Shown here one piece after another: positions 9,488-56,306 of a stretch of DNA of 64,000 nt. The translations under genes and the position numbers were made by a program. The notes below the pieces were generated by a model that saw only the letters and a program-made list of their open reading frames with translations, made no database searches and was not told where the DNA came from. The DNA is from Croceicoccus pelagius (lineage in GTDB: Bacteria > Pseudomonadota > Alphaproteobacteria > Sphingomonadales > Sphingomonadaceae), in contig NZ_LYWY01000039.1 in the NCBI RefSeq assembly GCF_001661915.1, positions 124,001-188,000 on the forward strand, read 5' to 3'. Positions within the stretch are counted from its first letter, which is position 1; every line of letters starts with the position of its first letter.

Positions 9488-10450
9488 TCAGGGACGCATC
9501 ACCACGCGTCCGAAGGGGTGCTGCGTTGCCACGAATTCGTGGGCCTCGCGCACCTCGGACAGGCGGAACTCACGCTCGATCGGCAAGACGAGCGCGCCGC
9601 TGGCAACGTCGGCGAAAAGGTCTTCCAGCAGTTGGTGAACGCGCGGCGTGTGCATGTCACGCCCGAACGAGATGCCGGTCACCTGCATCGCCTTGCGGAT
9701 CAGTTCGAAGAAATCGAAGCTGGGCAGGGTGCCTTCCGCAGCGCCAATCACCGAGTAACGGCCATGTGGGCGCAGCGCCTTTACCAGCAGGTCCTTGCCC
9801 TTGCCGCCAGCGAGGTCGAGCACGAGGTCCACGCCTTTGCCTCCGGTAATCTCGCGGCAGCGCGCGGCGATGTCCTCGTTCCTGTAGTCGATCCCGTGTT
9901 CTAGGCCGAGCGGACGGATACGGTCCAGCCGCGCCTCGCCCGACGCGGTGCCGATGACTTGCGCTCCGGCGCGCGCAGCCAGTTGCACCGCCGACAGGCC
10001 GACACCGCCCGCAGCGCCCTGGACCAGTACGAACTCGCCCGCTTTCAGCCCGCCATATTCGAACAAGGCATCATGCGCGGTGCCGAAGGCGATGGGAACG
10101 ATCGAGGCCTGCCGCAAGTCCATGCCCTCGGGCACGGGGTAGGCGTAGTGTTCGGGAACGGCGAAAAATTCTGCGTGGCTGCCGTTCCAGTCGAAGGCGA
10201 CGACGCGGTCACCCGCCTTGAAGCGGGTGACTTCGTTGCCCACCGCCTCGACAATGCCAGCGGCCTGATAACCGGGGATGTGATGGTCCGAAGAAGGCGC
10301 CGCGTGGATGCGGTTGAGCAGGTCACCGCCCTCGATCGAGATCCACTCGACTCGGACGAGTACCGTCTTCGGACCGACTTCCGGATCGGGAATATCGCCA
10401 TAGTGGAGGACCTCGGGCCCTCCGTTCTCGCCATACCATGCTGCTTTCAT
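9488..10450 (-). CDS. zinc-less MDR family NADPH:quinone oxidoreductase-like enzyme
   Basis: The 320-residue product is a medium-chain reductase of the quinone oxidoreductase type. It has an N-terminal GroES-like domain (about 1-120) and a Rossmann domain with the nucleotide motif VQGAAGGVGLSAVQLA near residues 140-156. Cysteine and histidine ligands of zinc alcohol dehydrogenases are missing. It could reduce an enone, an enoyl-CoA or a quinone. The gene follows the acyl-CoA dehydrogenase gene by 20 bases on the same strand, so the two are probably co-transcribed. An AAGG sits four bases before the ATG. Confidence 0.85.
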   Translation of the reverse strand: MKAAWYGENGGPEVLHYGDIPDPEVGPKTVLVRVEWISIEGGDLLNRIHAAPSSDHHIPGYQAAGIVEAVGNEVTRFKAGDRVVAFDWNGSHAEFFAVPEHYAYPVPEGMDLRQASIVPIAFGTAHDALFEYGGLKAGEFVLVQGAAGGVGLSAVQLAARAGAQVIGTASGEARLDRIRPLGLEHGIDYRNEDIAARCREITGGKGVDLVLDLAGGKGKDLLVKALRPHGRYSVIGAAEGTLPSFDFFELIRKAMQVTGISFGRDMHTPRVHQLLEDLFADVASGALVLPIEREFRLSEVREAHEFVATQHPFGRVVMRP

Positions 10451-10470
10451 GTGCCTTGCCGCAGTTGCGA

Positions 10471-11586
10471 TCAGGAGGCGAGCGCGTAGCGGTCCAGCGT
10501 GCTGAGCGGCGGTTCGGGCCAGCGCGATAGGACCAGCAGGCGCTTGTGCCCCTGTCCGATCGAAAGCTCGTCCGTCACGCCCATACCGCCGTGGAACTGG
10601 ATCATCTCGTGCCCCAGTTCGAGCGAGGCATCGGAAATGAAGGCGCGGGCGCCGTCGACATTGCGGATAAAGCCGTCCTCACCGTCGCTCACGATCGCGA
10701 GTTCGACCAGTGCGCGTGACTGTTCCAGGATCGCGTATTGCTCCGCCATGCGGTGCTGCAGGACTTGGAACTTGCCGAGCGGTGCGCCGAACTGTTCGCG
10801 GGTGCGCAGATAGTCCAGCGTTTCGGCGAACATGCATTCCATGATGCCAAGCGCTTCTGCCGAGCGGGCAAGGTTTGCCAGTGCATCGGCGCGTTCGAAG
10901 CCGTCCGGGTTGCTCGCGAGGCGGGCCGAGGCCGGAACGGTGACTGCTGAAAGCGTGAGCGAGGCGGTCCACGTACCGTCGGAAAAACGCCACTGCGTGA
11001 TGGTCAGGCCATCGGCGTCGGCCGGGACGAGGAACCATGCCCAGCCGTCGTTGTCGGTCGCATCGCCGCTTTCGCGCGCGCTGACGAGGTAGGCATCTGC
11101 CTGAGCGCCGGCGATCGCGTAGATCTTCTCGCCGTCGAGGACGAAATCCTCGCCGTCCTGCTTCGCGGTCGTCTCGATCCAGAGGCTGCCGTCGCGCGAT
11201 CCGCTTTCGATGGAGGCAATGGCCATCCGCTTTTCACCCGAGAGCAGGGCAGGGAGCCATTCTTCCTGCACTGCTTCCTCCGCACCGGCGGCCAGATAGA
11301 GACCGGGAAGAACGCAGCTTTCGAGAACGGGTTCGACCACGATGCCGCGGCCCAGCGCCTCGAAGATGACCGCAGTCGCGGTCGCGTCGAGACCGAGGCC
11401 GCCCGCTTCTTCCGAAAAGGGCACGGACATGACGCCAAGTTCGGCCAGCAAGGACCAGTTCTCGGCGCTGAAGCCTGCGGTTTCGGTCAGATAGCCACGG
11501 CGGCGCTCGACGTCGTAACGGTCCGCGACGAACCTTTCGACGACCGCCTTGAGCATTTCTTCGTCTTCGTTGAGGTCGAAATTCAA
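10471..11586 (-). CDS. acyl-CoA dehydrogenase, short 371-residue type
   Basis: This FAD-dependent acyl-CoA dehydrogenase has an N-terminal helical domain, the middle beta domain and the C-terminal domain with RTREQFGAPLGKFQVLQHRMAE and HEMIQFHGGMGVTDE. The start is a TTG at 11586, preceded by AAGGAG at a good distance; no ATG fits as well. It lies head-to-head with a luxR-type gene and pairs functionally with a second dehydrogenase at 14215. Such unequal pairs form alpha2beta2 enzymes in steroid side-chain degradation (ChsE type). That role is inferred, not shown. Confidence 0.85.
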   Translation of the reverse strand: MNFDLNEDEEMLKAVVERFVADRYDVERRRGYLTETAGFSAENWSLLAELGVMSVPFSEEAGGLGLDATATAVIFEALGRGIVVEPVLESCVLPGLYLAAGAEEAVQEEWLPALLSGEKRMAIASIESGSRDGSLWIETTAKQDGEDFVLDGEKIYAIAGAQADAYLVSARESGDATDNDGWAWFLVPADADGLTITQWRFSDGTWTASLTLSAVTVPASARLASNPDGFERADALANLARSAEALGIMECMFAETLDYLRTREQFGAPLGKFQVLQHRMAEQYAILEQSRALVELAIVSDGEDGFIRNVDGARAFISDASLELGHEMIQFHGGMGVTDELSIGQGHKRLLVLSRWPEPPLSTLDRYALAS

Positions 11587-11714: not shown

Positions 11715-12485
11715 ATGGCCCAATTCACGATCGACAAGCTGGACGAAGTCCGAATTCGCAAACCCGAAGATATTGTTCGCGCCGCAAAGGCGCTGGCCGA
11801 TATCGCTGCGGCAGAAGGGATGAAGGCCGCCCCCGCGCACGACATCGCGGACAAGCGCACCCCCGTCGATATGGAGGGCAACGTCCTTGCGTCCACAGTG
11901 TTTGGCTGGCCCGACACCGACGACGTGTGGTGGCGCAATCCGCGTATTGCACTCGAATCGCCGATCACGTCGGCCTGCCGGTTCGAGAACGAACCGTTCT
12001 GGGTGAACGCGGAAGGATTCCATCTGCCTTCGCCGAACAAGTATCTCGAATCGATCGATCTTTCGAACTTCGAGGCGCGCGCCCGAACCCGCGCGGCCAT
12101 CGTCGTGCCGGTTCACATGGCGTTCGGCCAGATCGGCGCCGTCAGTTTCGATTTCGACGATCCGGAAAAGGTCGATCTCACCGAAGATTTTGCCCGCAAC
12201 GGCGACAAGTTCGGGATCTACGCGCGCGCGTTCATCGAAAGCTACACGCGCGTCATGGGTGCGATCCAGGCGCTGCCGCCGGGTTCGCGCCTTTCGAAGC
12301 GCGAGGTGGAGTGCCTGCGCTGGGCCGCCATCGGCAAGACCGACATGGAAATCTCGATGATAATGTCGCGCAGCCGCGCGACCGTGCGTTTTCACATCCA
12401 CAACGCCTCGACAAAGTTGAACGCGGTGAACCGCAGCCAGACCGTCTTCAAGGCGGCCCAGCTCGGCTATATCTCGCTCAACTGA
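11715..12485 (+). CDS. LuxR family transcriptional regulator (solo)
   Basis: The 256-residue product has an N-terminal domain resembling autoinducer-binding domains (about 20-165, with VWWRNPRIALESPITSACR and PFWVNAEGF). A C-terminal GerE-type helix-turn-helix (about 194-254) contains LSKREVECLRWAAIGKTDMEISMIMSRS. The ATG at 11715 is preceded by GAGGAA and gives a better N-terminus than the frame opening at 11658. No luxI synthase is visible in the window, so it looks like a LuxR solo that may sense a pathway metabolite. It is divergent from an acyl-CoA dehydrogenase operon and precedes the side-chain degradation operon, which it probably controls. Confidence 0.85.
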   Translation: MAQFTIDKLDEVRIRKPEDIVRAAKALADIAAAEGMKAAPAHDIADKRTPVDMEGNVLASTVFGWPDTDDVWWRNPRIALESPITSACRFENEPFWVNAEGFHLPSPNKYLESIDLSNFEARARTRAAIVVPVHMAFGQIGAVSFDFDDPEKVDLTEDFARNGDKFGIYARAFIESYTRVMGAIQALPPGSRLSKREVECLRWAAIGKTDMEISMIMSRSRATVRFHIHNASTKLNAVNRSQTVFKAAQLGYISLN

Positions 12486-12675: not shown

Positions 12676-13068
12676 ATGAAAGCGATCGCCGAAGGCCTAT
12701 TCACGAGCGAGCCCGAACCGCGCCTTGTCGGCGGGAAGGATCGCGAGAGCGGCCGTATCGTATTTCCCTGCCCCGTGAACGACCGTTTCGAACCCGTTCC
12801 CCTGTCGCGCAGTGGTACCTTGTGGAGCTACACCATCCAGCGTTTCCGACCGAAAAGCCCGCCTTATGCCGGGCCCGAAGCGTTCACCCCGTTCCCTGTC
12901 GCCTATGTCGAGCTGCCCGGCGAAACCATCGTCGAGGCCCGGCTGGTCGACGTCGACTTCGACGATATCGAGATTGGCATGCCGCTTGAATTCACGACGA
13001 CCCCACTCGACCCCGATGCGGCCGAACCGGTCCTGATCCCGGCGTTCCGTCCGGCGGAGGCTGCGTAA
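12676..13068 (+). CDS. DUF35 OB-fold protein, thiolase partner
   Basis: The 130-residue protein has the OB-fold half of the DUF35 family (GTLWSYTIQRFRPKSPP, then FPVAYVELPGETIVEARLVD). The N-terminal half, which normally carries a four-cysteine zinc ribbon, contains only one cysteine (C32), so the metal site is degenerate. A strong GGAGGGGA precedes the ATG at 12676. The stop overlaps the next gene as TAATG. Pairs of DUF35 and thiolase-like proteins form acyl-CoA thiolases, or retro-aldolases such as Ltp2 with the DUF35 domain of ChsH2. The gene order supports such a complex. Confidence 0.82.
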   Translation: MKAIAEGLFTSEPEPRLVGGKDRESGRIVFPCPVNDRFEPVPLSRSGTLWSYTIQRFRPKSPPYAGPEAFTPFPVAYVELPGETIVEARLVDVDFDDIEIGMPLEFTTTPLDPDAAEPVLIPAFRPAEAA

Positions 13069-14213
13069 TGGGCGACGTTTTCGTACTGGGTGTAGGCATC
13101 CATCCCTTCGGTCGGACCGAAGGCATGTCTGGCGTCGACCAGGGAGTCTTCGCGGTGCGCCAGGCGCTCGGCGATGCAGGGCTGGAATGGAAGGACGTCC
13201 AGTTCGCATACGGCGCGTCGGATGCGGCGGGCAATCCCGACACGATGGTCGACCAGCTCGGCCTGACCGGCGTCCAGTTCATAAACGTGCGCAACGGCTG
13301 CGCGGCTGGTGGCTCGGCGCTGTTCTCGGCGCAGATGGCGATCAAGTCGGGCGAATGCGACATCGGCCTTGCGGTTGGTTTCGACAAGCACCCGCGCGGG
13401 GCGTTCGATGCCAAGCCGTCCGAATACAACCTGCCCGAATGGTACGGCGATGCCGGCTACATGGTCACGACGCAGTTCTTCGCGAACAAGATCATGCGCT
13501 ATATGCACCTTAACGGGATCAGCCGCGAAACGCTTGGCCGCGTGGCCGAAAAGGCGTTTCGTAACGGAGAGAAGGCGCCACACGCATGGCGCCGCCAGCC
13601 GGTGCCGCTGGAAGACATTCTAGAGGCTCCGATGGTTTCGGACCCCTATTCGAAATACATGTTCTGTTCGCCCGCCGAAGGGGGCGTCGCGCTCATCCTC
13701 GGTAGCGAGAAGAAGGCTCGCGAACTCGGCGTGCCGCTGGTCCGCCTGAAGGCCGCGACGATGCGCACCCGTCCGCCGGGCAGCTTCGAGGTCTTCGCAC
13801 CTTCCGTCGATATCGAGCGTGGCGGCAGCGCGACCAATATCGCCAGCCGCGATGCCTTCAACATCGCGGGCATCGGCCCGGAGGATATCGATGTTGCCCA
13901 GCTTCAGGACACCGAGGCAGGCGCCGAGCTGATGCATATGGCCGAGAACGGGTTCTGCGCCGATGGCGAGCAGGAAAGGTGGCTGGCCGAAGGCCTGACC
14001 GAGATCGGCGGCAAGCTTCCGGTCAATACCGATGGCGGCTGCCTTGCCTGCGGCGAGCCGATTGGTGCTTCCGGTCTGCGCCAGGTTTACGAAAATGTCG
14101 TTCAATTGCGCGGACAGGGCGGCGCGCGGCAGGTGCCGGGCGATCCCAAGACCGCCTATAGTCATGTCTATGGTGCACCCGGCGTGTCCGCGGTGACCAT
14201 CCTGGAGCGTTGA
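13068..14213 (+). CDS. thiolase-like lipid-transfer protein (probable retro-aldolase)
   Basis: The 381-residue product belongs to the SCP-x/Ltp2-like thiolase branch. It keeps an active-site-like cysteine in NGCAAGGSALF (about residue 83). In the C-terminal motif the usual GHP of thiolases reads GEP (GGCLACGEPIGASGLRQVYE), so ordinary thiolysis is doubtful. Ltp2-type proteins with a DUF35 partner cleave beta-hydroxyacyl-CoAs of steroid side chains by retro-aldol reaction. The gene is translationally coupled to the DUF35 gene and one base from an acyl-CoA dehydrogenase. I favour an aldolase, with a thiolase of unusual mechanism as the alternative. Confidence 0.83.
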   Translation: MGDVFVLGVGIHPFGRTEGMSGVDQGVFAVRQALGDAGLEWKDVQFAYGASDAAGNPDTMVDQLGLTGVQFINVRNGCAAGGSALFSAQMAIKSGECDIGLAVGFDKHPRGAFDAKPSEYNLPEWYGDAGYMVTTQFFANKIMRYMHLNGISRETLGRVAEKAFRNGEKAPHAWRRQPVPLEDILEAPMVSDPYSKYMFCSPAEGGVALILGSEKKARELGVPLVRLKAATMRTRPPGSFEVFAPSVDIERGGSATNIASRDAFNIAGIGPEDIDVAQLQDTEAGAELMHMAENGFCADGEQERWLAEGLTEIGGKLPVNTDGGCLACGEPIGASGLRQVYENVVQLRGQGGARQVPGDPKTAYSHVYGAPGVSAVTILER

Positions 14214-14214: not shown

Positions 14215-15423
14215 ATGGATATCGAGCTGACCCCGGAAGAGGAAAGCTTCCGCCAGGAAGTCCGCGACTTTCTGAAAAACAACCTGACGGACCGTATCCG
14301 CGAGGGTGCGGCCAGTTCGCCGACCGTGTTCGTCGAACCCGATATCGGGCAGGACTGGAACGCGGTGCTGAACGAACAGGGCTGGTTGGGTTATCAGTGG
14401 CCCAAGGAAGATGGCGGCACGGGCTGGACCCCGGTGCAGCGCTATATCTTCGAGAAGGAATGCGCGCTGGCAGGGGCCCCGAACCTGACCGTGCTGGGCC
14501 TGAAGCTTGTCGCGCCGGTTATCTTCAACTTCGGCACGCAGGAACAGAAGGAAAAGTACCTGCCCCGCATCCTCGCAGGCGAGGATTACTGGTGCCAGGG
14601 ATTCTCCGAACCCAATGCCGGTTCGGACCTTGCCTCGCTGCAGACCCGTGCAGTGAAGCAGGGCGACAAGTACGTTATCAACGGTTCCAAGATCTGGACT
14701 ACCCACGCGCACTGGGCGAACAAGATGTTCGTGCTCGCGCGGACCGATGCGACCGTGAAGAAACAGGCGGGCATCAGCTTCTTCCTCGTCGACATGAACC
14801 AGCCGGGTATCTCGGTGCGCCCGATCCTGACGATGGCGGGCGATCACGAAGTGAACCAGGTCTTCATGGAGGACGTCGAAGTCCCCGCCGGCGACCTTGT
14901 CGGTGAAGAAGGGCAGGGCTGGACGATCGCCAAGTTCCTGCTCGAAAACGAGCGCGGCGGTTCCTGCCATGCGCCCAAGCTGTTGTTCGACCTGGACCAG
15001 ATCGAGGAAATGTCGAAGGATGTGCCCGACGGCCGCGGCGGCAAGCTGGCCGACGATCTCGACTGGCGCCGCCGCATGGCGAAGCTGCGCCTTGGCATCC
15101 AGTCGCTCGAGGTGATCGAACTGAAGATCCTCTCGCGCATTGCCAAGGGGCAGAAGCCGGGTCCGCAGACTTCGCTGACCAAGCTGCTGGCATCAAACCT
15201 GCGCCAAGATGTCGATTTGCTGGCGGTCGACCTGTTCGGTCCGGCCGGTCTCCAATTGCCGACCGCGCGACCGCTCTATGGCGAGAACGCGCCGGCTCCG
15301 TTCCGCTGTGAAAAGGCGCAAGTCGCCGCAGCGCGCTATCTCAACAGTCGTGCATGGACGATCTTCGGTGGTACCGATGAAGTCCAGCGCACGATCATCG
15401 CCAAGACGGTGCTTGGCCTCTAA
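14215..15423 (+). CDS. acyl-CoA dehydrogenase
   Basis: The 402-residue flavoprotein has the complete three-domain family pattern, including GFSEPNAGSDLASLQTRA, a substrate-binding WTT segment (KIWTTHAHWANKMFVLAR) and the C-terminal IFGGTDEVQRTIIAKTVLGL. The position of the catalytic Glu of medium-chain enzymes (IYEGT) is Gly here (IFGGT), as in the alpha2beta2 dehydrogenases that use a base elsewhere. It follows the thiolase-like gene by one base. A heteromer with the shorter dehydrogenase at 10471-11586 is plausible. Confidence 0.9.
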   Translation: MDIELTPEEESFRQEVRDFLKNNLTDRIREGAASSPTVFVEPDIGQDWNAVLNEQGWLGYQWPKEDGGTGWTPVQRYIFEKECALAGAPNLTVLGLKLVAPVIFNFGTQEQKEKYLPRILAGEDYWCQGFSEPNAGSDLASLQTRAVKQGDKYVINGSKIWTTHAHWANKMFVLARTDATVKKQAGISFFLVDMNQPGISVRPILTMAGDHEVNQVFMEDVEVPAGDLVGEEGQGWTIAKFLLENERGGSCHAPKLLFDLDQIEEMSKDVPDGRGGKLADDLDWRRRMAKLRLGIQSLEVIELKILSRIAKGQKPGPQTSLTKLLASNLRQDVDLLAVDLFGPAGLQLPTARPLYGENAPAPFRCEKAQVAAARYLNSRAWTIFGGTDEVQRTIIAKTVLGL

Positions 15424-15449: not shown

Positions 15450-16436
15450 ATGCAACTCAGCCGTGAAGACCTGCTGGAGGCCTATCGCAGGATGAAGATC
15501 ATCCGCGATTTCGAGGATTTCCTCCACGACGAGATCGCCAAGGGCGAAATCGCCGGCTTTACCCACCTCTATGCGGGGCAGGAAGCCGTCGCCGTCGGGG
15601 TGTGTGAACACCTGACCGACGATGACAAGATCGTCTCGACCCACCGCGGACACGGCCACTGCCTTGCCAAGGGTTGCGATGTCGAAGGCATGATGAAGGA
15701 AATCTGGGGCAGCCGCGAAGGCCTGTGCAAGGGCAAGGGCGGTTCGATGCACATCGCCGACATCGACAAGGGCATGCTGGGCGCAAACGGCATCGTCGGT
15801 GCCGGCGCGCCGATCGCGGTCGGCGCAGCCATTGCCGCCAAGATCGACGGCAAGGACGAGAACGGCAACCTCAAGGTTTCCATCGCGTTTTCGGGCGACG
15901 GCGCCTGCAATCAGGGCACGACGTTCGAGGCTATGAACATGGCTGTCGTGACCAAGGCACCTGCAATTTTCGTGTTCGAGAACAACCACTATTCCGAGCA
16001 CACCGGCTTCGAATATGCGGTCGGCACCGACAAGGACATCGCCAGCCGCGCCGAGGCGTTCGGCATGAAGGTCTGGCGCGCCGACGGCACCGATTTCAGC
16101 GCGGTTCACGACACCATGCGCGAAGTGCTTGAATATGTCCGTGCGGGTAACGGCCCGGCTGCGGTCGAGTTCGATACCGAGCGTTTCTACGGCCACTTCG
16201 AAGGCGATCCGCAGCGTTACCGCGCCAAGGGAGAACTGGACCGCATCCGTGCCGAGCGCGACTGTATCAAGAAGTTCCGCGAGACCGTGACCGAGGCGAA
16301 GCTGCTCGAAGGCGAAGAACTCGACAAGATCGACGCCGAAGTCGCCAGCCGGATCGAGAAGGCCGTGGAATCGGCCCGCAAGGCAGAACGACCCACTGCC
16401 GAAGACGTCCTTGTCGACGTCTACATCGATTATTGA
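15450..16436 (+). CDS. 2-oxoacid/acetoin dehydrogenase E1, alpha subunit
   Basis: This 328-residue thiamine-diphosphate protein resembles AcoA and PdhA. The TPP motif GDGACNQG is at residues 149-156, with ENNHYSEHT further on closing the NN part. It is followed by E1 beta and E2 genes, so it forms the decarboxylating component of a 2-oxoacid dehydrogenase complex that makes an acyl-CoA. Location after an acyl-CoA dehydrogenase and the aldolase pair suggests use of a 2-oxo acid, or acetoin-like diketone, released from the catabolic substrate. GGGAGAG precedes the ATG. The substrate cannot be told from sequence alone. Confidence 0.92.
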   Translation: MQLSREDLLEAYRRMKIIRDFEDFLHDEIAKGEIAGFTHLYAGQEAVAVGVCEHLTDDDKIVSTHRGHGHCLAKGCDVEGMMKEIWGSREGLCKGKGGSMHIADIDKGMLGANGIVGAGAPIAVGAAIAAKIDGKDENGNLKVSIAFSGDGACNQGTTFEAMNMAVVTKAPAIFVFENNHYSEHTGFEYAVGTDKDIASRAEAFGMKVWRADGTDFSAVHDTMREVLEYVRAGNGPAAVEFDTERFYGHFEGDPQRYRAKGELDRIRAERDCIKKFRETVTEAKLLEGEELDKIDAEVASRIEKAVESARKAERPTAEDVLVDVYIDY

Positions 16437-16452
16437 GCGGGAGAGCGAAACA

Positions 16453-17466
16453 ATGGCACGTAAAATGTATCGCGACGCCGTTCGTGACACCATCTTTGAA
16501 GAAATGAAACGCGACCCCAACGTCGTCGTCCTTGGCGAAGACGTCGTCGGCGGCATGGGAACTGCAGGCGGCCCGGAAGCCATCGGCGGCATCTGGTCGA
16601 CCAGTGGCGGCTTCTACGAGGCATTCGGCCCCGATCGCGTGATCGACACCCCGATTTCGGAAAGCGCCATCGTCGGCGCGGCTGGCGGCCTTGCGCTGTC
16701 GGGCAAGCGCCCGATCGCTGAACTGATGTTCGCCGACTTCATCGGCGTCAGTCTTGACCAGATCTGGAACCAGATCGCCAAGTTCCGCTATATGTTCGGC
16801 GGCAAGACCAAGTGTCCGGCGATCATCCGCTGTATCTATGGCGCAGGTTACAACGCCGCGGCGCAGCACAGCCAGAGCCCGCACGCGATCCTGACCGGCA
16901 TGCCCGGACTGAAGGTCGTCATGCCCTCCACGCCGGCGGACGTGGCAGGCCTAATGCGCCAGGCGATCCGCGAAGATGACCCGGTCATCTTCATGGAGCA
17001 CAAGGCGCTTTACGGCATGAAGGGCGAAGTGCACGACGATCCGGATTACACCATCCCCTTCGGCCACGCGCGCCTGACGCGTGCCGGACAGGATGTGACG
17101 ATCCTTGCCACTGGCATGATGGTCGGCATGGCCGAGGGTGCTGCCGACAAGCTGGCGGCAGACGGGATAGGCGCGGACGTCATCGATCTTCGCACGACCA
17201 GCCCGCTGGATGAGGAAGCGATCCTTGATTCGGTGGAAGTCACCGGTCGTCTCGTCATCGTCGACGAAGCACCGCCGCGCTGCAGCCTTGCGACCGACCT
17301 TGCCGCGATCGTTGCGAACAAGGCCTTTGCAAGCCTCAAGGCGCCGATCGAAATGGTCACTGCGCCGCACACCCCGATCCCGTTCGCGCGGGAACTGGAA
17401 AGCGCATACCTACCGAACCCCGACAAGATCGAGGCCGCCGTCCGCAAGGCGCTGGCCTACAATTGA
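16453..17466 (+). CDS. 2-oxoacid/acetoin dehydrogenase E1, beta subunit
   Basis: The 337-residue product is the transketolase-C bearing half of a heterotetrameric E1. It shows the family blocks RDAVRDTIFEEMKRDP, VVLGEDV, PISESAIVGAAGGLALSGKRPI and IDLRTTSPLD. The ATG at 16453 follows GGGAGAG and matches family N-termini; an earlier frame opening at 16411 overlaps the E1 alpha coding end. It supplies part of the TPP site together with E1 alpha and is co-transcribed with it (16-base gap). Confidence 0.93.
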   Translation: MARKMYRDAVRDTIFEEMKRDPNVVVLGEDVVGGMGTAGGPEAIGGIWSTSGGFYEAFGPDRVIDTPISESAIVGAAGGLALSGKRPIAELMFADFIGVSLDQIWNQIAKFRYMFGGKTKCPAIIRCIYGAGYNAAAQHSQSPHAILTGMPGLKVVMPSTPADVAGLMRQAIREDDPVIFMEHKALYGMKGEVHDDPDYTIPFGHARLTRAGQDVTILATGMMVGMAEGAADKLAADGIGADVIDLRTTSPLDEEAILDSVEVTGRLVIVDEAPPRCSLATDLAAIVANKAFASLKAPIEMVTAPHTPIPFARELESAYLPNPDKIEAAVRKALAYN

Positions 17467-17479
17467 GGAGGCACGGATA

Positions 17480-24235: not shown

Positions 24236-24238
24236 TCC

Positions 24239-25048: not shown

Positions 25049-25065
25049 ATTGAAGGAGAGGTCGC

Positions 25066-37807: not shown

Positions 37808-37820
37808 CGTCAGATCCTCC

Positions 37821-39938: not shown

Positions 39939-39962
39939 AAAACAGGTCGATCGACCTGTTTT
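39939..39962 (-). terminator. terminator of the leftward tetR gene
   Basis: AAAACAGGTC-GATC-GACCTGTTTT is a perfect hairpin that overlaps the tetR stop codon and ends in T residues in the leftward direction. It separates tetR from Rieske D downstream. It could also serve as an operator because it is fully palindromic. Confidence 0.5.
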
Positions 39963-46809: not shown

Positions 46810-46849
46810 TCGGTTTCAATCCGCCAGCAAGCGAAGAAGAGGAATTTCG

Positions 46850-49378: not shown

Positions 49379-51109
49379 ATGGCGAAATCGAATGGACTGA
49401 GCCGCCGGCGGATGCTGGCAGGAAGCGGCGCTGCAGCAGTCGTGGCAACGACCGCGGCGTGCAGCCGCGGGCCCAGCGCGGGCAGCGAGACCTGGGACGA
49501 GACTTGCGACGTCCTGTGCGTGGGCAGTGGCGCGGCCGGGGGTACTGCGGCCGTGACGGCATCGGCGGCCGGCGCGAAAGTGCTGGTGCTCGAAAAGATG
49601 TCCATCCCTGGCGGCACGACCGCCAAGTCGGGCGGCGTGACCTGGATATTCAATCACTTCCTGCTGAAAGAGCAGGGGATCGAGGACAAGAAGGATGACG
49701 CGCTGCGATATGCTGTACGCTACGGCTTCGCGCGCGAGTACGATCCGGCCAGTCCGACGCTCGGCCTCGACGAGACGCGCTATCGCACGCTCGAGGCGTT
49801 CTACGATCACGGCAGCGACGCGATCGACCACTTGCGCGAACTGGGCGCGGTGCAGTTCAAGCAGTTCCGCATGTTCTTTGTCGACAAGCCCGCGCCCGAC
49901 TATGCCGACCACTTGCCCGAGAACAAGGTGCCGACAGGCCGCGCGCTGGAGCCTTCGGTCGGCTCCGGCTCGACAGAGGGCGGCGGCAGCCTTGCGCGTC
50001 AGCTTGGCGCCTATCTGGAAAAGCAGAAAGTACCGGTCATGCTGGACACGGCCGTCACGAAGATCGTCAAGGACAGCGATGGCCGCGTAGTCGGCGTAGA
50101 GGCGGAGCGCGGCGGCGAAAAGCTGCGTATCAGGGCCGAAAAGGGCGTCGTATTTGGCACCGGCGGTTATTCGCATAACGTCGATTTGTGCAACATCCAC
50201 CAGCCTGCAGTTTATGGCTCGTGCTCGTTGCCCGGATCGACCGGCGACTTCATCGCGCTGGCGCAGGAAGCAGGCGCGAAGATGGGCAGCATGGGACTGG
50301 GCTGGCGTAGCCAGGTCGTGCTGGGCGAAGCGCTGGCATCGCGCGCGGTCGGCCTTGGCGCATTCGTACTGCCCGGCGATTCCATGATCCTTGTGAACAA
50401 GTACGGGGACCGCGTCGTCAACGAAAAGCGCGACTACAACGACCGCACGCAGGCCCACTTCCCTTATGATCCGGGGCACGAGGAATATCCCAATCACCTG
50501 ATGTTCATGCTGTTCGACGCGCGCTCGATCGACGCGTTCGGCGGTGCCTTCCCGTTCCCGGTAGAAGAGAAGGAGCAGCCGCACCTGCTGAAGGCGGATA
50601 GCTGGGACGCGCTTGCAGGGAAGATCTCGGCCCAGCTTGCGGGCTGGTCGGGCAAGTCGGGCGGTGTCGCGCTTGCAAATGACTGGGGCGCGAAAGTTCG
50701 CCAGACGGTCGCCCGATACAACGGGTTCGCCAAGGCTGGCGTCGATGCCGATTTCGGGCGGGGCAAGTATCTCTACGACCGCGAGTGGCATTTGCTGTTT
50801 TCCGCTCGCCGTCAGGGCACCACCCAGCCGGACAACCCCTATCCGAACATCACGATGCATCCCCTTGCCGATAACGGCCCCTATTACGCGATCGTTCTGG
50901 CGCCGGGCACGCTCGATACTGCAGGTGGGCCGCAGATCAACGCCAACGCGCAAGTGCTAGGCGCAGACGGGGAGCCGATCGAGGGGCTTTACGCGGCGGG
51001 CAACTGCATCTCCGCACCGACGGGGCAGGCTTATCTCGGGGCAGGGGGCACGATCGGTCCTGCGGTCACCTTCGGCTACATCGCCGGCAAGCACGCGGTG
51101 GAGGCATGA
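49379..51109 (+). CDS. Tat-exported 3-ketosteroid dehydrogenase-like flavoprotein
   Basis: The 576-residue protein opens with a twin-arginine signal (LSRRRMLAGSGAAAVVATTAAC; lipobox-like C28), then the FAD motif VGSGAAGGTAA (49-59). The C-terminus has NGPYYAIVLAPGTLDTAGG and GLYAAGNCISAPTGQAYLGAGGTIGPA, close to the pattern of KstD enzymes, including the conserved PYYA tyrosines. KstD introduces the 1,2 double bond into 3-keto steroids and is normally cytoplasmic. This one is predicted to be exported. The start is the only ATG in frame and has a weak ribosome site. Its stop overlaps a cytochrome c gene. Confidence 0.88.
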   Translation: MAKSNGLSRRRMLAGSGAAAVVATTAACSRGPSAGSETWDETCDVLCVGSGAAGGTAAVTASAAGAKVLVLEKMSIPGGTTAKSGGVTWIFNHFLLKEQGIEDKKDDALRYAVRYGFAREYDPASPTLGLDETRYRTLEAFYDHGSDAIDHLRELGAVQFKQFRMFFVDKPAPDYADHLPENKVPTGRALEPSVGSGSTEGGGSLARQLGAYLEKQKVPVMLDTAVTKIVKDSDGRVVGVEAERGGEKLRIRAEKGVVFGTGGYSHNVDLCNIHQPAVYGSCSLPGSTGDFIALAQEAGAKMGSMGLGWRSQVVLGEALASRAVGLGAFVLPGDSMILVNKYGDRVVNEKRDYNDRTQAHFPYDPGHEEYPNHLMFMLFDARSIDAFGGAFPFPVEEKEQPHLLKADSWDALAGKISAQLAGWSGKSGGVALANDWGAKVRQTVARYNGFAKAGVDADFGRGKYLYDREWHLLFSARRQGTTQPDNPYPNITMHPLADNGPYYAIVLAPGTLDTAGGPQINANAQVLGADGEPIEGLYAAGNCISAPTGQAYLGAGGTIGPAVTFGYIAGKHAVEA

Positions 51110-51531
51110 GTGTGAAGAGCAACCTGACGATCATGTCGCTTCTTCTGCTGGCCGGATGTTCCGGTGGTTCCGAAGAGGCCACTGCTCCGGTGGAAGAGAT
51201 GGCGACACCTTCGTTGTTTGCCGAGAAAGTCGCGCCAACGTTGCAGGCGCAATGCGCGACCTGCCATCTGACGGGGCAGGAACAGGGCAATATCTCGCTC
51301 GTGCCGGCAAAGGCGATCGAGAGCCTTGTTGGCGTCCCGTCACAGGAAGCACCCGATATCCTGCGGGTAAAGGCTGGCGATCCGGATGCGTCCTATCTCG
51401 TCATGAAGATCGAGGGGACGCATCTGGACCACGGAGGCAACGGCGTACGAATGCCGTTTGGTGCCGCGCCGCTGACGGATCAGCAGATCGCCGACATCCG
51501 CCAGTGGATTGCAGAGGGCGCGAAGCCCTGA
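51106..51531 (+). CDS. lipoprotein c-type cytochrome
   Basis: The 141-residue protein has an N-terminal lipoprotein signal (SLLLLAGC, Cys18), one heme motif CATCH (50-54) and a candidate axial Met in RMPFGAAPL. It overlaps the flavoprotein gene by four bases as ATGA. A periplasm-facing cytochrome of this type can take electrons from a flavoprotein and pass them to the respiratory chain. Pairing with the upstream KstD-like enzyme as its electron acceptor is an inference from overlap and shared export. Confidence 0.87.
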   Translation: MSVKSNLTIMSLLLLAGCSGGSEEATAPVEEMATPSLFAEKVAPTLQAQCATCHLTGQEQGNISLVPAKAIESLVGVPSQEAPDILRVKAGDPDASYLVMKIEGTHLDHGGNGVRMPFGAAPLTDQQIADIRQWIAEGAKP

Positions 51532-51549: not shown

Positions 51550-52329
51550 TCAGACCTGGCTGAACCCGCCGTCCATGACCAGCTCGTCGCAGGTCATGAA
51601 GCTCGATGCTTCAGAGGCGAGGAAGACGACACCGCCCGCCATTTCGCCTGGGCGGCCCATCCGGCCGATGGGGTGGTTGGCCTTGATGCCTGCAATCGCG
51701 GTGTCGACATCGGGAACTGCGCCCAGTTCGACATAGCGTTCCATGATGCTGCTGAGCATCGGAGTGTCGATCCCGCCGGGATGGACGCTGTTCACGCGGA
51801 TGTTGTAGCCGAGCGCGGCGAACTCTGCGCCCATGCACTTGCTCAGCATCTTCACCGCCGCTTTGCTGGTGCAATAGGCTGCGTTGAAAGCCGCGCCGCG
51901 AAGGCCGCCAACGCTGGAGAAGTTAATGATCGAAGCACCCCCTTCGCGCGCCTTGCCACCTTCTTTAAGCAGCGGAAGCAGGACTTGCGCGCTAAGCACC
52001 ACGGCATCTACGTTCACCGCGTTGACGCGGTGGAAATCGGACAGCGGCGTGTCTTCCAGCTTTGTCACGATGGAAATGCCGGCATTGTTCACCAGCGCGT
52101 CCAACCGACCGTAAGTCTCGGAAATGAAGGCGCCGATCTCGTCCCAGTCGTCCTCGCGCGTTACGTCGTGCTGGAAGTAGTGATCGGCTCCGCCATGATC
52201 TCCGCCATCGGCGATGTCGGTGGCGATCACGGTCGCGCCCGCGGCCTTCATGGCCTTCACGATTTCGCGCCCGATACCGCCGGTTGCCCCCGTCACGAGG
52301 GCGATGCAGTTTTCCAATGCTATCGTCAT
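51550..52329 (-). CDS. SDR family oxidoreductase
   Basis: The 259-residue protein has TGATGGIG (13-20), NNAG (81-84), S138/S139 and Y152-x3-K156 (YCTSK), ending in DGGFSQV. TDIAD after the second strand suggests NAD preference. It is the downstream member of three tandem leftward SDRs, with GAGGAGGGG before the ATG. Hydroxysteroid dehydrogenases have this domain pattern, but the specific position cannot be read from sequence. Confidence 0.88.
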   Translation of the reverse strand: MTIALENCIALVTGATGGIGREIVKAMKAAGATVIATDIADGGDHGGADHYFQHDVTREDDWDEIGAFISETYGRLDALVNNAGISIVTKLEDTPLSDFHRVNAVNVDAVVLSAQVLLPLLKEGGKAREGGASIINFSSVGGLRGAAFNAAYCTSKAAVKMLSKCMGAEFAALGYNIRVNSVHPGGIDTPMLSSIMERYVELGAVPDVDTAIAGIKANHPIGRMGRPGEMAGGVVFLASEASSFMTCDELVMDGGFSQV

Positions 52330-52348
52330 GTACCCCTCCTCAAATAGG

Positions 52349-53155
52349 TCAGCGTGAGATGTAGCCGCCGTCGACGACCAGTTCCGAACCGGTCATATAG
52401 CTCGATGCCTCTGTCGCGAGGAACGCGACCGCGTCCCCGATCTCGTCAGGATCGGCGAGCCGGTTGACCGGCGTGGAGGCCGCGACCTGGTCCTTCAGGT
52501 CCTGTGCCTTCTCCGCGACCCCGCGCGAGACCATCCGCTCGAACCCTTCGTCGAGCAGCGGCGTCTGCACGAAGCCGGGATGCACCGAGTTCGCACGGAT
52601 CGGCACACCATAGGCGGCGAATTCGACGGCGCAGGCCTTGGTGAACAGGCGGATCGCGCCCTTCGACGTGCAATACGCCGCGCTTTCGGGGAAGGCGACG
52701 AAGCCCATGATCGAACTGACGTTGATGATGGAAGAGCCGCCCTTGCGGTCCTTTCCGCTCTTTTCCATCAGCGCGAAGCTGTGCTTCACACCAAGGAAGG
52801 CGCCGTCGCTGTTCACGGCCTGGACCTTGCGCCAAAGCTCGAGGCTCATGTCCTGGATGCGGCCCGTGCCGTCGATGCCGGCATTGTTGACGAGCACGTC
52901 GAGACGTCCGTCAGCAGCCTCGATCTTGGCGATCGCGTCGATCCATGACTGTTCCTCGGTGACGTTGAGCTGGACATATGCCGCCCCGCCACCGATCGAT
53001 CCCAGTGCTTTTGCCACGGCATCGTCGCTTTCTGACGTAAGATCGCCGATCCAGACTTTCGCGCCCTTGGCGGCCAGTTTCTCTGCGGCTGCGAGACCGA
53101 TCCCGCGAACGCCGCCGGTGACGAGCGCGACGCGTCCTGCGAGTTCTTCGCTCAT
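52349..53155 (-). CDS. SDR family oxidoreductase
   Basis: The 268-residue protein has TGGVRGIG (13-20), NNAG, S147/S148 and Y161-x3-K165 (YCTSK). IGDL after the second strand suggests NAD preference. It overlaps the upstream SDR gene by four bases and lies 19 bases before the downstream one. It resembles the other two tandem proteins but is not a near-identical copy, so the triplet probably covers different alcohol positions. Confidence 0.88.
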   Translation of the reverse strand: MSEELAGRVALVTGGVRGIGLAAAEKLAAKGAKVWIGDLTSESDDAVAKALGSIGGGAAYVQLNVTEEQSWIDAIAKIEAADGRLDVLVNNAGIDGTGRIQDMSLELWRKVQAVNSDGAFLGVKHSFALMEKSGKDRKGGSSIINVSSIMGFVAFPESAAYCTSKGAIRLFTKACAVEFAAYGVPIRANSVHPGFVQTPLLDEGFERMVSRGVAEKAQDLKDQVAASTPVNRLADPDEIGDAVAFLATEASSYMTGSELVVDGGYISR

Positions 53156-53934
53156 ACGCCCGACATCCCTGCGGTGGTTGCTCCGTCGATGGTATATTCC
53201 CCGCCCGAGATGAACGCTGCCTCGTCCGATCCGAGGAAGGCGACCAGGGAGGCCACTTCATCTACGCTTGCCATGCGCTTTAGCGGCGCCATGCCTTCGT
53301 ACATTGCGCGCGCCGCTGCCGGGTCTTCCTGAGAGTTCATGATGTTGAGGATCAGGTCGGTCTCGACCACACCGGGCAGGATCGCATTGACGCGGATCTT
53401 GTAGCCGGCGAGTCCGCAGTAGTTTGCGGCCGACTTCGCCAGCGCCACGACAGCGGCCTTGGTGACCGAATAGCCCATATAGTTGCCCATCGCCCGGTGG
53501 GCGTTCATCGAACTGTTGATGATGACCGATCCGGTCGGACCGCCGGGGTTGTCCTTCATGATGCGGATGGCGTTCTGACACGTCAGCATCGCGCCGGTCT
53601 GGTTGACTTCCACGATGAAGTTCCAGCCTTCGAGCGTGATGTTCTCGACGCTGCCGTCATTCTTTTCGGTACCGGCATTGGCGAATGCGATGTCGAGGCG
53701 GCCGAAATCCTTGCGGATTTTCGCCGACAGCTCTTCCCATCCCTGTGCGTCCTGCACCCGGTGCGAGAAAAAGGTTGCGCCGGTTTCCTCGCAAAGCGGG
53801 CGTGCCGCTTCCTCGCGCGAACCGGTGAAGATGACCTTGGCGCCTTCGGCAGCCAGCCGCCTTACGGCGCCCGCACCGATACCCGCCGTGCCGCCCGTTA
53901 CGAGCGCCACTTTGCCTGAAAGCCTGTCGGACAT
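53152..53934 (-). CDS. SDR family oxidoreductase
   Basis: The 260-residue protein has TGGTAGIG (13-20), NAG, S141/S142 and Y155-x3-K159 (YSVTK). It is the first gene of the three-SDR leftward operon, with GGAGCAGGAT before the ATG. It is divergent from Rieske subunit G across 159 bases, so the two units may share regulation. Confidence 0.88.
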   Translation of the reverse strand: MSDRLSGKVALVTGGTAGIGAGAVRRLAAEGAKVIFTGSREEAARPLCEETGATFFSHRVQDAQGWEELSAKIRKDFGRLDIAFANAGTEKNDGSVENITLEGWNFIVEVNQTGAMLTCQNAIRIMKDNPGGPTGSVIINSSMNAHRAMGNYMGYSVTKAAVVALAKSAANYCGLAGYKIRVNAILPGVVETDLILNIMNSQEDPAAARAMYEGMAPLKRMASVDEVASLVAFLGSDEAAFISGGEYTIDGATTAGMSGV

Positions 53935-54093: not shown

Positions 54094-55512
54094 ATGTCCG
54101 ACATCGATGTCACCGAAAAGTTCGGCGAGGACCGCAGCGAAGGCATCAGCTGGAACGAGCTGATGGAGCGCGATTCCCGTCCCGCGCCGGACATCTTGAC
54201 CGAAGAATCATACGAGTACCGCGGCTCCGACCCGATCCCGGTAGAGCGCTACACGAGCGAGGAATTCGCGAAGAAAGAGCGCGAGCGCATGTGGCCCTAT
54301 GTCTGGCAGTTCTGCGCCCGCGAGGAAGAGCTGAACGAGCCTGGCGATTTCGTCGTCTATGAAAACGCAGGCCGCAGCTATCTCGTCGTGCGCCAAGACG
54401 ACGGTTCGATCCGCGCCATGCACAACGTGTGCCTTCACCGCGGCCGCAAGCTGCGCACCGAGGACGGTTCGGCCGACAAGTTCACCTGCCCGTTCCACGC
54501 CTTCACTTGGAACAAGGACGGCACGTTCAACCATGCACCGTGCCAGTGGGATTTCCCGCACCTCGAAAAGAAGAACATGGACCTGCCCGACGCCGAAGTG
54601 GCGACGTGGCAGGGTTATGTCTTCCTTCGCGAGGAAAAGGGCGGGCCGAGCCTCGAGGAATATCTCGCGCCGCTGCCCGACCACTTCAAGCGCTGGCGCC
54701 ACGATGAATGTGCGACCGTGATGCACGTTGCCAAGGAAGTGCCTGCCAACTGGAAGGTCGTGATGGAAGCCTTCATGGAAGCTTGGCACACGATCGTCAC
54801 GCACCCGCAGCTCCTGCCGTTCACGGGCGATTCCAACTCGGCCTACCGGACGTGGGGCGACAATATCAACGTGAACCTCGTGCCCTTCGGCATCATGAGC
54901 CCGCACATCCAGGAAGGGCAGGGCGAGCAGTGGATTGTTGACGAGTTCATCAAGTACAACGGTCGCAGCTCGGACAACTACGAGAGCGCGGGCGACCCGA
55001 TGGCGATCGCCGTTCCCGAAGGCAAGACCGCGCGTGAAGCTTTGGGCGACAAGATGCGCGAGGTTTATACCGAGACCACGGGCTACGACCATTCGGATGC
55101 GACCGACGCCGAAGTGCTCGACGCGCTGGTCTACAACGTCTTCCCGAACTTCGCGCCGTGGGGCGGGTTCATGCCGAACATCGTCTACAGCTGGTTCCCC
55201 GGCAAGACGCCAGACACCTGCGTCATGGACGTTCGCATTCTTGCCCGTTTCAAAAAGGGCGATCCCCGTCCGGCCGCCGCGCCGCGCAAGTTCCTCACCC
55301 TCGACCAGAAGTGGACCGAGGCGCCCGAACTCGGCATTCTCGGTGACGTGTTCGAGCAGGACATGGACAACCTCCCCTTCGTTCAGGAAGGCCTCCACGC
55401 CTCGAAGACCGGCGAGGTCCAGTTGGGCAACTATCAGGAAATCCGCATCCGCCAGTTCCAGGATACCATGATGAAATACCTCAATGGTGAACTCGGAGGC
55501 TCGAAGGCCTGA
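54094..55512 (+). CDS. Rieske oxygenase alpha subunit G
   Basis: The 472-residue subunit has C113/H115 (CLHRG), C132/H135 (CPFHAF), H232 and H237 and bridging Glu229 (MEAFMEAWHTIVTHPQ). It is paralogous to subunit B, with the same ligand positions, and shares its CPFHAF variant. GAGGAT precedes the ATG. The stop overlaps the ThuA-like gene by one base (TGATG), so both are expressed as a pair. Confidence 0.93.
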   Translation: MSDIDVTEKFGEDRSEGISWNELMERDSRPAPDILTEESYEYRGSDPIPVERYTSEEFAKKERERMWPYVWQFCAREEELNEPGDFVVYENAGRSYLVVRQDDGSIRAMHNVCLHRGRKLRTEDGSADKFTCPFHAFTWNKDGTFNHAPCQWDFPHLEKKNMDLPDAEVATWQGYVFLREEKGGPSLEEYLAPLPDHFKRWRHDECATVMHVAKEVPANWKVVMEAFMEAWHTIVTHPQLLPFTGDSNSAYRTWGDNINVNLVPFGIMSPHIQEGQGEQWIVDEFIKYNGRSSDNYESAGDPMAIAVPEGKTAREALGDKMREVYTETTGYDHSDATDAEVLDALVYNVFPNFAPWGGFMPNIVYSWFPGKTPDTCVMDVRILARFKKGDPRPAAAPRKFLTLDQKWTEAPELGILGDVFEQDMDNLPFVQEGLHASKTGEVQLGNYQEIRIRQFQDTMMKYLNGELGGSKA

Positions 55513-56306
55513 TGGACAAGATCGACCACGGACCCGACCCGCTCGCCGAGTTTTCTGCCAAGAACCATCCGGATCGCATCGACTGCGTTCTGATCGCGGG
55601 CGGTGTCTGGCACGATATAGATTTCGCGCGTCTGGAACTTCTGAAGCTTCTGGCAGAGGACCCGCGCGTTCGCACCCGCGTGTTCGAGGATTTCGAAAAC
55701 CTCGATGCGATCCGGGACGCCGACATCCTCATCAGCTACACCTGTAACGTTGTCCCTTCGGACGCGGCGCAGGAAACGCTGCGCGACTGGATCGAGGCTG
55801 GCGGGCGCTACTACGCGCTGCACGGCACGAACTCGATTCTGAAGCTGATGGACGACGGTCTGTTCCACGCTCCGCGTGAAGCGCAGTTGTTCATGGACGT
55901 GCTGGGCAGCCAGTTCATCACCCACCCGCCGATCGCGCCCTATAGGGTTACGGTCGCGGACCCGGATCACGAACTGGTCACCGGGGTCGAGCCTTTCGAG
56001 ACGACGGACGAGCTCTACCACCTCGAAACGCACGGCGACCTTCATGTCCTGCTGGAGACCGAGTGCACCGAGGAAGGTACCGGCTTTGCCGAGGCTGCGG
56101 ACGCACTTGGCGTACACCCCGTCATGTACATCAAGGAGCGGGGCAAGGGCGCGGTCCTCTACAATACCCTCGGCCATTGCCGCGGGCACTACGACCTCCA
56201 GCCGCTGGCCGACTGGTGGCCGACGGTCGATCGCTGCGCATGGGAGCTGCCGGTCTATTACGACCTGCTTCGCCGCGGCATCGGCTGGATAAAACGCCGC
56301 GACTAG
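55512..56306 (+). CDS. ThuA-like domain protein, coupled to Rieske G
   Basis: The 264-residue product has the ThuA pattern: VLIAGGVWHDIDFARLELLKLL, then GGRYYALHGTNSI and a late GKGAVLYNTLGHCRGHYDLQPLADWW. It is distantly related to the product of 24239. It starts on the last base of the Rieske G stop codon. A partner role for the oxygenase, or a hydrolase/lyase acting on its product, is plausible, but no reaction is known for this combination. Confidence 0.85.
   Translation: MDKIDHGPDPLAEFSAKNHPDRIDCVLIAGGVWHDIDFARLELLKLLAEDPRVRTRVFEDFENLDAIRDADILISYTCNVVPSDAAQETLRDWIEAGGRYYALHGTNSILKLMDDGLFHAPREAQLFMDVLGSQFITHPPIAPYRVTVADPDHELVTGVEPFETTDELYHLETHGDLHVLLETECTEEGTGFAEAADALGVHPVMYIKERGKGAVLYNTLGHCRGHYDLQPLADWWPTVDRCAWELPVYYDLLRRGIGWIKRRD

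Follow-up and report, generated by a model that had tools for sequence, protein, structure and literature searches.

The catabolic island described here occupies positions 9488 to 56306 of a 64,000-nucleotide stretch of Croceicoccus pelagius DNA (contig NZ_LYWY01000039.1, positions 124,001 to 188,000), referred to below as the window. The genome comprises 3.3 Mb in 40 contigs, and our own gene calling places 62 genes in the window, of which 46 (g8 to g53, about 47 kb) make up the island (Table 1). Pfam was run on all 46 proteins and an NCBIfam scan on 20 of them. Profile and sequence searches covered 298 genomes of the family, and named loci were compared separately. The original prediction, made from the sequence alone, had described a large locus for the breakdown of a steroid or terpenoid by a route that departs from the textbook 9,10-seco pathway; its view of the island as an extensive set of catabolic genes directed at a bulky cyclic compound is supported.

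The families counted in that prediction, including KstD-type flavoproteins, acyl-CoA dehydrogenases (ACADs) and NTF2-fold proteins, were all confirmed by Pfam, with short-chain dehydrogenases/reductases (SDRs) numbering six. Its list of missing enzymes (an extradiol dioxygenase, a KshB-like reductase and a MaoC hydratase) holds for the 46 island genes at E<=0.001. Families it had left out are a Rieske ferredoxin (g21), 2-oxoacid dehydrogenase E1alpha, E1beta and E2 (g14-g16), an APH kinase (g18), a cytochrome c (g48), two ThuA proteins (g24, g53), a TIM barrel (g33), an EthD protein (g34), a VOC protein (g17), three medium-chain reductases (g8, g23, g25), a LuxR regulator (g10) and two TetR regulators (g38, g46).

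Table 1. Genes of the island, with window coordinates, strand and basis of each call. MDR, medium-chain dehydrogenase/reductase; PDB, Protein Data Bank; CDH, cyclohexanone dehydrogenase; ORF, open reading frame.
Gene and product	Coordinates	Strand	Basis
g8 medium-chain dehydrogenase/quinone reductase	9488..10450	-	Pfam ADH_N/ADH_zinc_N
g9 ACAD, probable small-subunit type of a heteromeric ACAD	10471..11586	-	Pfam; NCBIfam pimD_small 260.8 bits, under cut-off
g10 LuxR-type regulator	11715..12485	+	GerE 1.9e-14; Autoind_bind 4.5e-4, under cut-off
g11 stand-alone DUF35/OB-fold partner	12676..13068	+	Pfam OB_ChsH2_C
g12 SCP2-thiolase/lipid-transfer-like C-C cleaving enzyme	13068..14213	+	Thiolase_C_1; PDB matches
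g13 ACAD, probable large-subunit type	14215..15423	+	PDB 4x28 202.5 bits; pimC_large 355.7 bits, under cut-off
g14-g16 2-oxoacid dehydrogenase E1alpha, E1beta, E2	15450..18919	+	Pfam E1_dh, Transket_pyr/Transketolase_C, 2-oxoacid_dh
g17 VOC protein	18930..19466	+	Glyoxalase_4
g18 APH-family kinase, presumed 4-hydroxyacyl-CoA kinase	19526..20593	-	Pfam APH 1.9e-53
g19 ACAD11-type acyl-CoA dehydrogenase	20586..21785	-	top PDB matches 8v3u, 8v3v, 2wbi (ACAD11)
g20 SnoaL_2 NTF2-fold protein, no Y-D-H triad	21790..22188	-	Pfam, alignment
g21 Rieske ferredoxin	22328..22678	+	Pfam Rieske
g22 SnoaL_4 NTF2-fold protein, no triad	22794..23222	+	Pfam, alignment
g23 MDR, g24 ThuA, g25 MDR, g26 SDR	23225..26786	+	Pfam
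g27 Rieske alpha, bridging Glu	26809..27993	-	Pfam; top PDB CntA 6y8j
g28 Rieske alpha, bridging Glu	28017..29420	-	Pfam, motif
g29 SDR	29611..30393	-	Pfam; longer ORF to 31371 taken as spurious upstream extension
g30 FAD_binding_2 flavoprotein, PRK07121 type	31326..32795	+	Pfam; 540.5 bits against a cut-off of 537
g31 acyl-CoA ligase	33111..34742	-	AMP-binding
g32 Rieske alpha, bridging Glu	34959..36146	+	Pfam, motif
g33 TIM barrel (AP_endonuc_2), g34 EthD protein	36148..37301	+	Pfam
g35 SnoaL_4 protein without triad, g36 SDR	37367..38510	-	Pfam, alignment
g37 Rieske alpha, bridging Glu	38512..39828	-	Pfam, motif
g38 TetR regulator	39961..40644	-	Pfam
g39 TonB-dependent receptor	40814..43102	+	Pfam
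g40 cytochrome P450	43244..44467	+	Pfam
g41 SnoaL_4 protein, LinA-like Asp-His	44467..45003	+	Pfam, alignment
g42 Rieske alpha, bridging Glu	45030..46379	+	Pfam, motif
g43, g44 SnoaL_4 dehydratase-like proteins, Y-D-H triad	46387..47299	+	Pfam, alignment; g44 model
g45 Rieske alpha, bridging Glu	47332..48678	+	Pfam, motif; model pLDDT 89.9
g46 TetR regulator	48703..49299	+	Pfam
g47 predicted cyclic-ketone dehydrogenase, CDH/KstD type (FAD_binding_2)	49379..51109	+	Tat-like start, lipobox read by eye
g48 c-type cytochrome, lipobox by eye	51112..51531	+	Cytochrome_CBB3 8e-5 (under curated cut-off), Cytochrom_C 5.8e-4, CxxCH
g49, g50, g51 SDRs	51550..53934	-	Pfam
g52 Rieske alpha, bridging Glu	54094..55512	+	Pfam, motif
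g53 ThuA protein, directly after g52	55512..56306	+	Pfam

The genome contains 30 Rieske-domain matches, eight of them in these 47 kb, where an even spread would place about 0.4, although catabolic genes cluster in any case. Each of the seven island alpha subunits has a glutamate in the E-x2-H-x4-H motif, and this bridging Glu recurs in 199 of 200 typed relatives of the seven (named loci, at least 35% identity). Typing covered 23 alpha subunits of the genome, which outside the island divide into nine Glu-type and seven Asp-type; the remaining matches are three small ferredoxin-like proteins, one fragment, and two on C37 and one on C34 that stayed untyped. CntA-type monooxygenases carry a bridging Glu, and because of this shared residue the seven enzymes may be expected to act in monooxygenation. 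The original prediction had taken their excess to suggest a Rieske-based route of ring opening, which nothing in the analysis demonstrates. CntA is also the best PDB sequence relative of g27 and g52. For g45 it ranks among the best matches by sequence and, in the g45 model, by fold, there alongside dioxygenases and demethylases. The likeness of the island enzymes to CntA thus consists of the bridging Glu and these rankings; g45 differs in its identity of 16-17% over the model, in its SnoaL partner gene and in scoring similarly against dioxygenases.

Relatives of g45 usually have a SnoaL companion: in 42 of 49 named loci such a gene immediately precedes them. Among the remaining seven loci, a g44-like gene follows closely in three (L067, L069, L074), two (L077, L096) are cut at the contig end, and no SnoaL gene was found beside the g45 relative in L064 and L070. 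Glu-type Rieske genes other than g45 in these g45-centred loci have a SnoaL neighbour in 58 of 132 cases, against 35 expected, a count that none of 1000 shuffles reaches.

The SnoaL proteins of the island have the NTF2 fold, and g41, g43 and g44 contain a Tyr-x4-Asp ... His triad. In g44 the residues are Tyr19, Asp24 and His74, kept in 51 of 51 g44/g43 relatives; in g41 they are Tyr28, Asp33 and His78, kept in 62 of 73. BaiE has this triad, and LinA, the gamma-hexachlorocyclohexane dehydrochlorinase, has an Asp-His dyad. LinA entries are the nearest solved sequences of g41 (E 0.002-0.004), and in the alignment at E 0.002 g41 shares the Asp and one His with LinA. For g44, an AlphaFold2 model (predicted local distance difference test, pLDDT, 95.4) has PDB 3b8l as its nearest fold, a Novosphingobium aromaticivorans "putative aromatic ring hydroxylase" with 46% identity and a template-modelling (TM) score of 0.93. 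A putative scytalone dehydratase (TM 0.78), ketosteroid-isomerase-like proteins and LinA (TM 0.73-0.77) follow. The earlier reading of the island NTF2 proteins as dehydratases is partly supported, for the three proteins with the triad and not for g20, g22 and g35.

These small proteins could instead be diverged Rieske beta subunits, which share the NTF2 fold, and the adjacency of g44 and g45 resembles a beta/alpha pair. Weak matches of g41 to Rieske beta subunits (E 0.07-0.9) and the closeness of the g44 TM scores for LinA and for 3eby point the same way, and SnoaL_4 also matches three of the seven true beta subunits of this genome. PF00866, however, matches none of the six island NTF2 proteins at E<=1e-3, whereas it matches all seven small proteins beside Asp-type Rieske genes in the same genome. 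The triad is invariant in the g44/g43 group, and the first beta subunit among the fold matches of g44, 3eby, appears at rank 38 (TM 0.73), behind the dehydratase and the other NTF2 proteins. The PF00866 control and the triad lead to rejection of a beta-subunit role, which is quite unlikely. The protein 3b8l itself looks like a SnoaL dehydratase-like protein, its "ring hydroxylase" name probably being carried over from genomic context. By the g41 sequence and the g44 model, the SnoaL families here may hold kin of LinA.

The nearest solved relative of the flavoprotein g47 is cyclohexanone dehydrogenase (353 bits), and g47 scores 144 bits against the 3-oxosteroid 1-dehydrogenase 7p18. The catalytic residues of the Alicycliphilus denitrificans cyclohexanone dehydrogenase (8AM3/8AM6/8AM8) are given as Y195, Y376, Y570 and G574 in the accessible text of PMC10966990, which also reports that a W113A exchange lets in a bulkier substrate; the numbering was verified on the 8AM8 chain. 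All four residues are kept in g47, as Y175, Y353, Y552 and G556, and in 21 relatives of at least 50% identity (22 of 22 sequences). The position of the pocket residue W113 is taken by the smaller Val in the same 22, and g47 differs further in having a cytochrome gene directly behind it. Because the W113A variant admits a bulkier substrate, the Val supports a cyclic ketone larger than cyclohexanone as the likely substrate of g47, to which terpenoids and steroids would fit alike. The cytochrome g48 is the presumed electron acceptor. The g47 sequence also matches plasmids of Sphingobium TKS and MI1205 and Sphingomonas MM-1, at 45.7% over about half of the protein.

Catabolism of alicyclic hydrocarbons or naphthenic acids, with cyclohexanone-type desaturation followed by a beta-oxidation like that of cyclohexanecarboxylate or pimelate, would account for the nearest relative of g47. 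It would also suit g9 and g13, whose best NCBIfam scores are for pimeloyl-CoA dehydrogenase subunits, and g31, whose second best is for cyclohexanecarboxylate-CoA ligase, all of them under the cut-off. The Val at the W113 position suggests a larger ring system, however, and seven Rieske and six SnoaL proteins would exceed the expected needs of a simple alicyclic acid. Similarity to pimC/pimD is also usual for steroid ACADs. This reading is a doubtful one, with a modest share of the probability.

Further enzymes would act on acyl-CoA intermediates. The dehydrogenase g19 is closest to ACAD11 structures and adjoins the kinase g18, so that the two have the predicted make-up of an ACAD11-type 4-hydroxyacyl-CoA system, an ACAD11-like dehydrogenase with an APH kinase. 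ACAD10 and ACAD11 phosphorylate 4-hydroxyacyl-CoA, which thereby passes into beta-oxidation, according to the available portions of PMC12440821 and PMC11342911; in the island the predicted activity is divided between two separate proteins.

In the pair g11/g12, the thiolase-like subunit and DUF35/OB-fold partner resemble the Ltp2-ChsH2 aldolase and the BbsAB thiolase. The PDB scores of g12 are 156.6 bits for 6hsj, 152 for 7pxp and 93.5 for 6ok1, so that SCP2-thiolase and benzoylsuccinyl-CoA thiolase are its closer kin and the lipid-transfer protein 6ok1 is more distant; we take 7pxp to be BbsB and 6ok1 to be Ltp2. The nucleophile Cys is kept in g12, where NGC aligns with NNC of SCP2-thiolase. 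QDTE stands in place of what we take to be the HDCF block of thiolases, and GEP in place of the presumed GHP block. With the Cys kept and these blocks changed, thiolysis and retro-aldol cleavage are both possible. Sal1 and Sal2/Ltp2 are said, in the accessible part of PMC8399759, to have no thiolase nucleophile Cys. The Cys of g12 sets it apart from the Ltp2/Sal2 type as that source describes it. The pair also differs from the Ltp2-ChsH2 aldolase and the BbsAB thiolase in that Pfam found no MaoC domain in g11. The dehydrogenases g9 and g13 are a candidate heteromeric ACAD.

The predicted departure from the 9,10-seco route is upheld genome-wide for the markers tested. KshA_C (PF19298) has no match anywhere in the genome; among the 298 family genomes, 73 have one at E<=0.001, 61 over the cut-off and 48 at E<1e-20. 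The only extradiol (BphC_D1) protein of the genome (C20:6511) lies within an aromatic alpha-beta ring-hydroxylating dioxygenase cluster, and the three NAD_binding_1 reductases are all outside the window. No IpdE2-like match was found in the genome at E<=1e-40 with seven of 15 candidates scored; IpdAB and other genes of the HIP (hexahydroindanedione propionate) route were not searched. The IpdE2 model, with seven candidates scored in each of the 298 genomes, finds 48 genomes at E<=1e-40 and 34 at E<1e-50. None exceeds the curated 450-bit cut-off, and for that reason the marker is called only IpdE2-like. Every one of the 34 is also among the 48 genomes with a KshA_C match at E<1e-20, which shows agreement between the two markers.

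These markers are largely separable from the island genes. Twelve genomes carry g45 at 70% identity or more: four have both markers and eight have neither at these limits. Neither marker occurs in 12 of the 17 genomes that carry g12 at 80% or more. The association of g45 with the markers has a nominal p of 0.04 for IpdE2 and 0.11 for KshA, uncorrected for relatedness, which speaks a little for a link. In G061, G118 and G189 the listed marker matches are on other contigs or hundreds of kb away, and in G289 one KshA match and IpdE2-like matches lie 65-87 kb from g45. On this distribution the cluster can be separated from canonical steroid degradation.

A steroid side-chain or ring cluster for bile acids, sterols or estrogens, feeding the 9,10-seco/HIP route or the delta-4,6 variant of Sphingobium sp. 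Chol11, must be weighed against this distribution. Steroid clusters repeatedly contain KstD-type flavoproteins, DUF35/thiolase-like pairs and NTF2 dehydratases, and the best solved relative of g13, 4x28, is a heteromeric cholesterol ACAD. Besides the four g45 carriers with both markers, weak KshA_C matches (3e-5 to 5e-5) occur in three relatives within the genus (G036, G178, G290). The EthD protein g34 is reminiscent of Hsh3, a 7-beta-hydroxysteroid dehydratase with an EthD domain described in the accessible part of PMC12175502. As far as their available text goes, the bile-salt clusters of Chol11 and Caenibius tardaugens, both sphingomonads, share NTF2/EthD hydroxysteroid dehydratases, ACADs, a CoA ligase and SDRs with the island. 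Chol11-type degraders, however, reportedly possess KshA homologues and are without Sal2/Ltp2 homologues (PMC8399759, PMC8540908, PMC12175502, each in part), and a 9,10-seco step is proposed for Chol11. The present genome has a thiolase-like pair and no KshA_C match, and a Chol11-type bile-acid cluster is rejected on these two grounds. With the genome-wide marker results added, a steroid cluster of either kind is highly improbable. Of the two substrates first proposed, the steroid is weakened because eight of the 12 genomes with a close g45 have neither marker, and a terpenoid or alicyclic compound is the better guess.

Two narrower candidates were also set aside. Abscisic-acid catabolism, known from Novosphingobium sp. 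P6W, has a chemistry plausible for a retro-aldolase, and the accessible text of its source names no genes, so that it stays a guess. Steroidal glycoalkaloid degradation was considered for Sphingobium TomTYG65, which carries a related cluster; its paper does not contain the word Rieske, and passages of it name steroid orthologues.

The island is conserved in modules. At E<=1e-100, g12 occurs in 63 of the 298 genomes, and a chosen 20 of these were surveyed over 40 kb each, so that a gene may seem absent because it lies beyond the edge. Most constant is the operon g10-g13 (15, 16, 20 and 17 genomes for g10, g11, g12 and g13), followed by g14-g16 (12, 12 and 11), g25 and g53 (11 each), g9 (9) and g17, g19, g51 and g52 (8 each). 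Among the named matches listed, the closest g45 proteins are those of Croceicoccus gelatinilyticus (98%), C. sediminis (96%) and C. bisphenolivorans (95%). Of 80 named loci, 22, mostly in Novosphingobium and Croceicoccus, hold a g45 relative next to three or more of g42 and g49-g53.

Related clusters sit on plasmids of Novosphingobium, Sphingobium and Croceicoccus, and genes of both halves of the island stand together on the complete plasmids pNL2, pCME4A9I and pTomTYG65a. The locus falls into two separate parts in C. gelatinilyticus (G178) and C. sediminis (G119): g8-g19 keep the housekeeping neighbours seen here, and g20-g53 likewise keep their PII/AmtB neighbours. The pair g18-g19 stands at the break in the split relatives and is present in both blocks of C. 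gelatinilyticus, which suggests recombination across it; the present genome has one g19, plus a 58% and a 31% relative. An assembly chimera at the joint is rejected: the same order on a complete C. marinus plasmid record makes an error improbable. Relatives of g45 at 69-78% in gammaproteobacterial records (Luminiphilus, Zhongshania, Halopseudomonas) point to horizontal transfer.

In N. aromaticivorans DSM 12444, one region of pNL2 (SARO_RS18510-18680) holds relatives of at least 50% identity to g35-g36, g38-g42, g45, g47-g53 and g9-g17. A g37 relative lies about 30 kb away, and a g44-like NTF2 protein is 46% identical; from this equal identity it is probably 3b8l (Saro_3538). The stretch examined differs in having no relative of g18-g34 at that level, and the papers retrieved give no function for the pNL2 cluster.

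Such a mosaic could be a hot-spot of peripheral modules with no single pathway, in which each Rieske enzyme has its own compound. The separation of the two blocks in C. gelatinilyticus and C. sediminis, the wide differences in gene content among genomes and the presence of other Rieske-rich clusters in this genome fit that view. Against it, genes of both blocks are repeatedly found side by side, in differing gene orders, on the three plasmids and in G061, G118, G189 and G288, and this recurrence suggests selection for linkage. A collection of separate modules is unlikely, though it keeps some weight.

The preferred reading, held at about even confidence, is a conserved modular supercluster that would degrade a bulky isoprenoid-type ketone or acid of alicyclic structure, with a cyclic terpenoid as the likeliest substrate, and would work independently of the 9,10-seco/HIP route. 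Steroid-like compounds are also compatible with it. In the order assumed here, the substrate would enter through the TonB receptor, and Glu-type Rieske oxygenases and the P450 would hydroxylate unactivated ring positions. New hydroxyls may be oxidised by SDRs or dehydrated by SnoaL/EthD enzymes. A cyclic ketone would be desaturated by g47, which is predicted to be exported, together with the cytochrome g48, and enones would be reduced by the MDRs. The acid would be activated to its CoA ester by g31, and 4-hydroxyacyl-CoA intermediates would be phosphorylated and converted to enoyl-CoA by g18/g19. Chain cleavage would fall to the heteromeric ACAD g9/g13 with the pair g11/g12, and a 2-oxoacid would be decarboxylated by the E1/E2 complex g14-g16.

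Several observations weigh against this reading. The island families are common in many aromatic, alicyclic and polyketide pathways, and among the NCBIfam rows shown g30 alone passes its cut-off, with two generic PRK07121 models. The 40-kb stretches around g12 hold from 3 to 30 of the 46 island genes in the 20 genomes. The best PDB sequence match of g45 is the dioxygenase HcaE. The triad was not seen in alignments of g20, g22 and g35, and the g44 fold alone does not decide between dehydratase and beta subunit because the TM scores are so close. Only g45 shows a strong association with an adjacent SnoaL gene: of the seven Rieske genes in the window, two stand directly next to one (shuffle mean 1.3, not significant), as does one of nine Glu-type genes in other stretches of the genome. 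A general Rieske-SnoaL coupling is rejected on these counts, the enrichment outside g45 being moderate.

A broader proposal is more tentative: the island may encode all that is needed to degrade the rings of polycyclic isoprenoids (triterpenoids, diterpenoids or steroids) aerobically, by a route that dispenses with KshA, extradiol dioxygenase and HIP enzymes. Glu-type Rieske and SnoaL/EthD enzymes and the presumably exported ketone desaturase would there prepare retro-aldol and 2-oxoacid cleavages, and the 4-hydroxyacyl-CoA kinase/ACAD11 system would drain ring-opened lactone-type acids. The whole of this is improbable as it stands, though not negligible. No published account of the cluster was found in the literature searched, whose coverage excludes most subscription journals. 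Sphingomonads are prominent in the degradation of steroids, terpenoids and pollutants, yet such a route, if it exists, would escape surveys based on the classic steroid markers (KshA, HsaC, HIP genes). The pairing of Glu-type Rieske enzymes with SnoaL proteins and a split ACAD11 system in a ring-degradation cluster would then be a new pathway logic. The carrier N. aromaticivorans DSM 12444 is tractable, which makes the substrate question directly testable.

Related genes occur elsewhere in the genome. A second cluster at about 114-157 kb of C25 contains Glu-type Rieske genes, E1alpha/E1beta relatives (41%), SnoaL genes, SDRs and a thiolase relative and forms a paralogous supercluster. An 80% identical paralogue of g52 stands at the start of contig C32 (L009, 5236-6633), near other Rieske genes and a 540-amino-acid protein that looks like a GMC oxidoreductase by eye. 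The small contigs C20 and C21, which hold aromatic alpha-beta dioxygenase clusters, begin with the same TonB receptor fragment, to judge from its length and initial residues, and this suggests that the contigs end in a repeat. The island is closely followed, at 57291-60916, by a tandemly duplicated PII/AmtB pair (genes 55/56 and 57/58), with AmtB confirmed by Pfam for gene 56 only.

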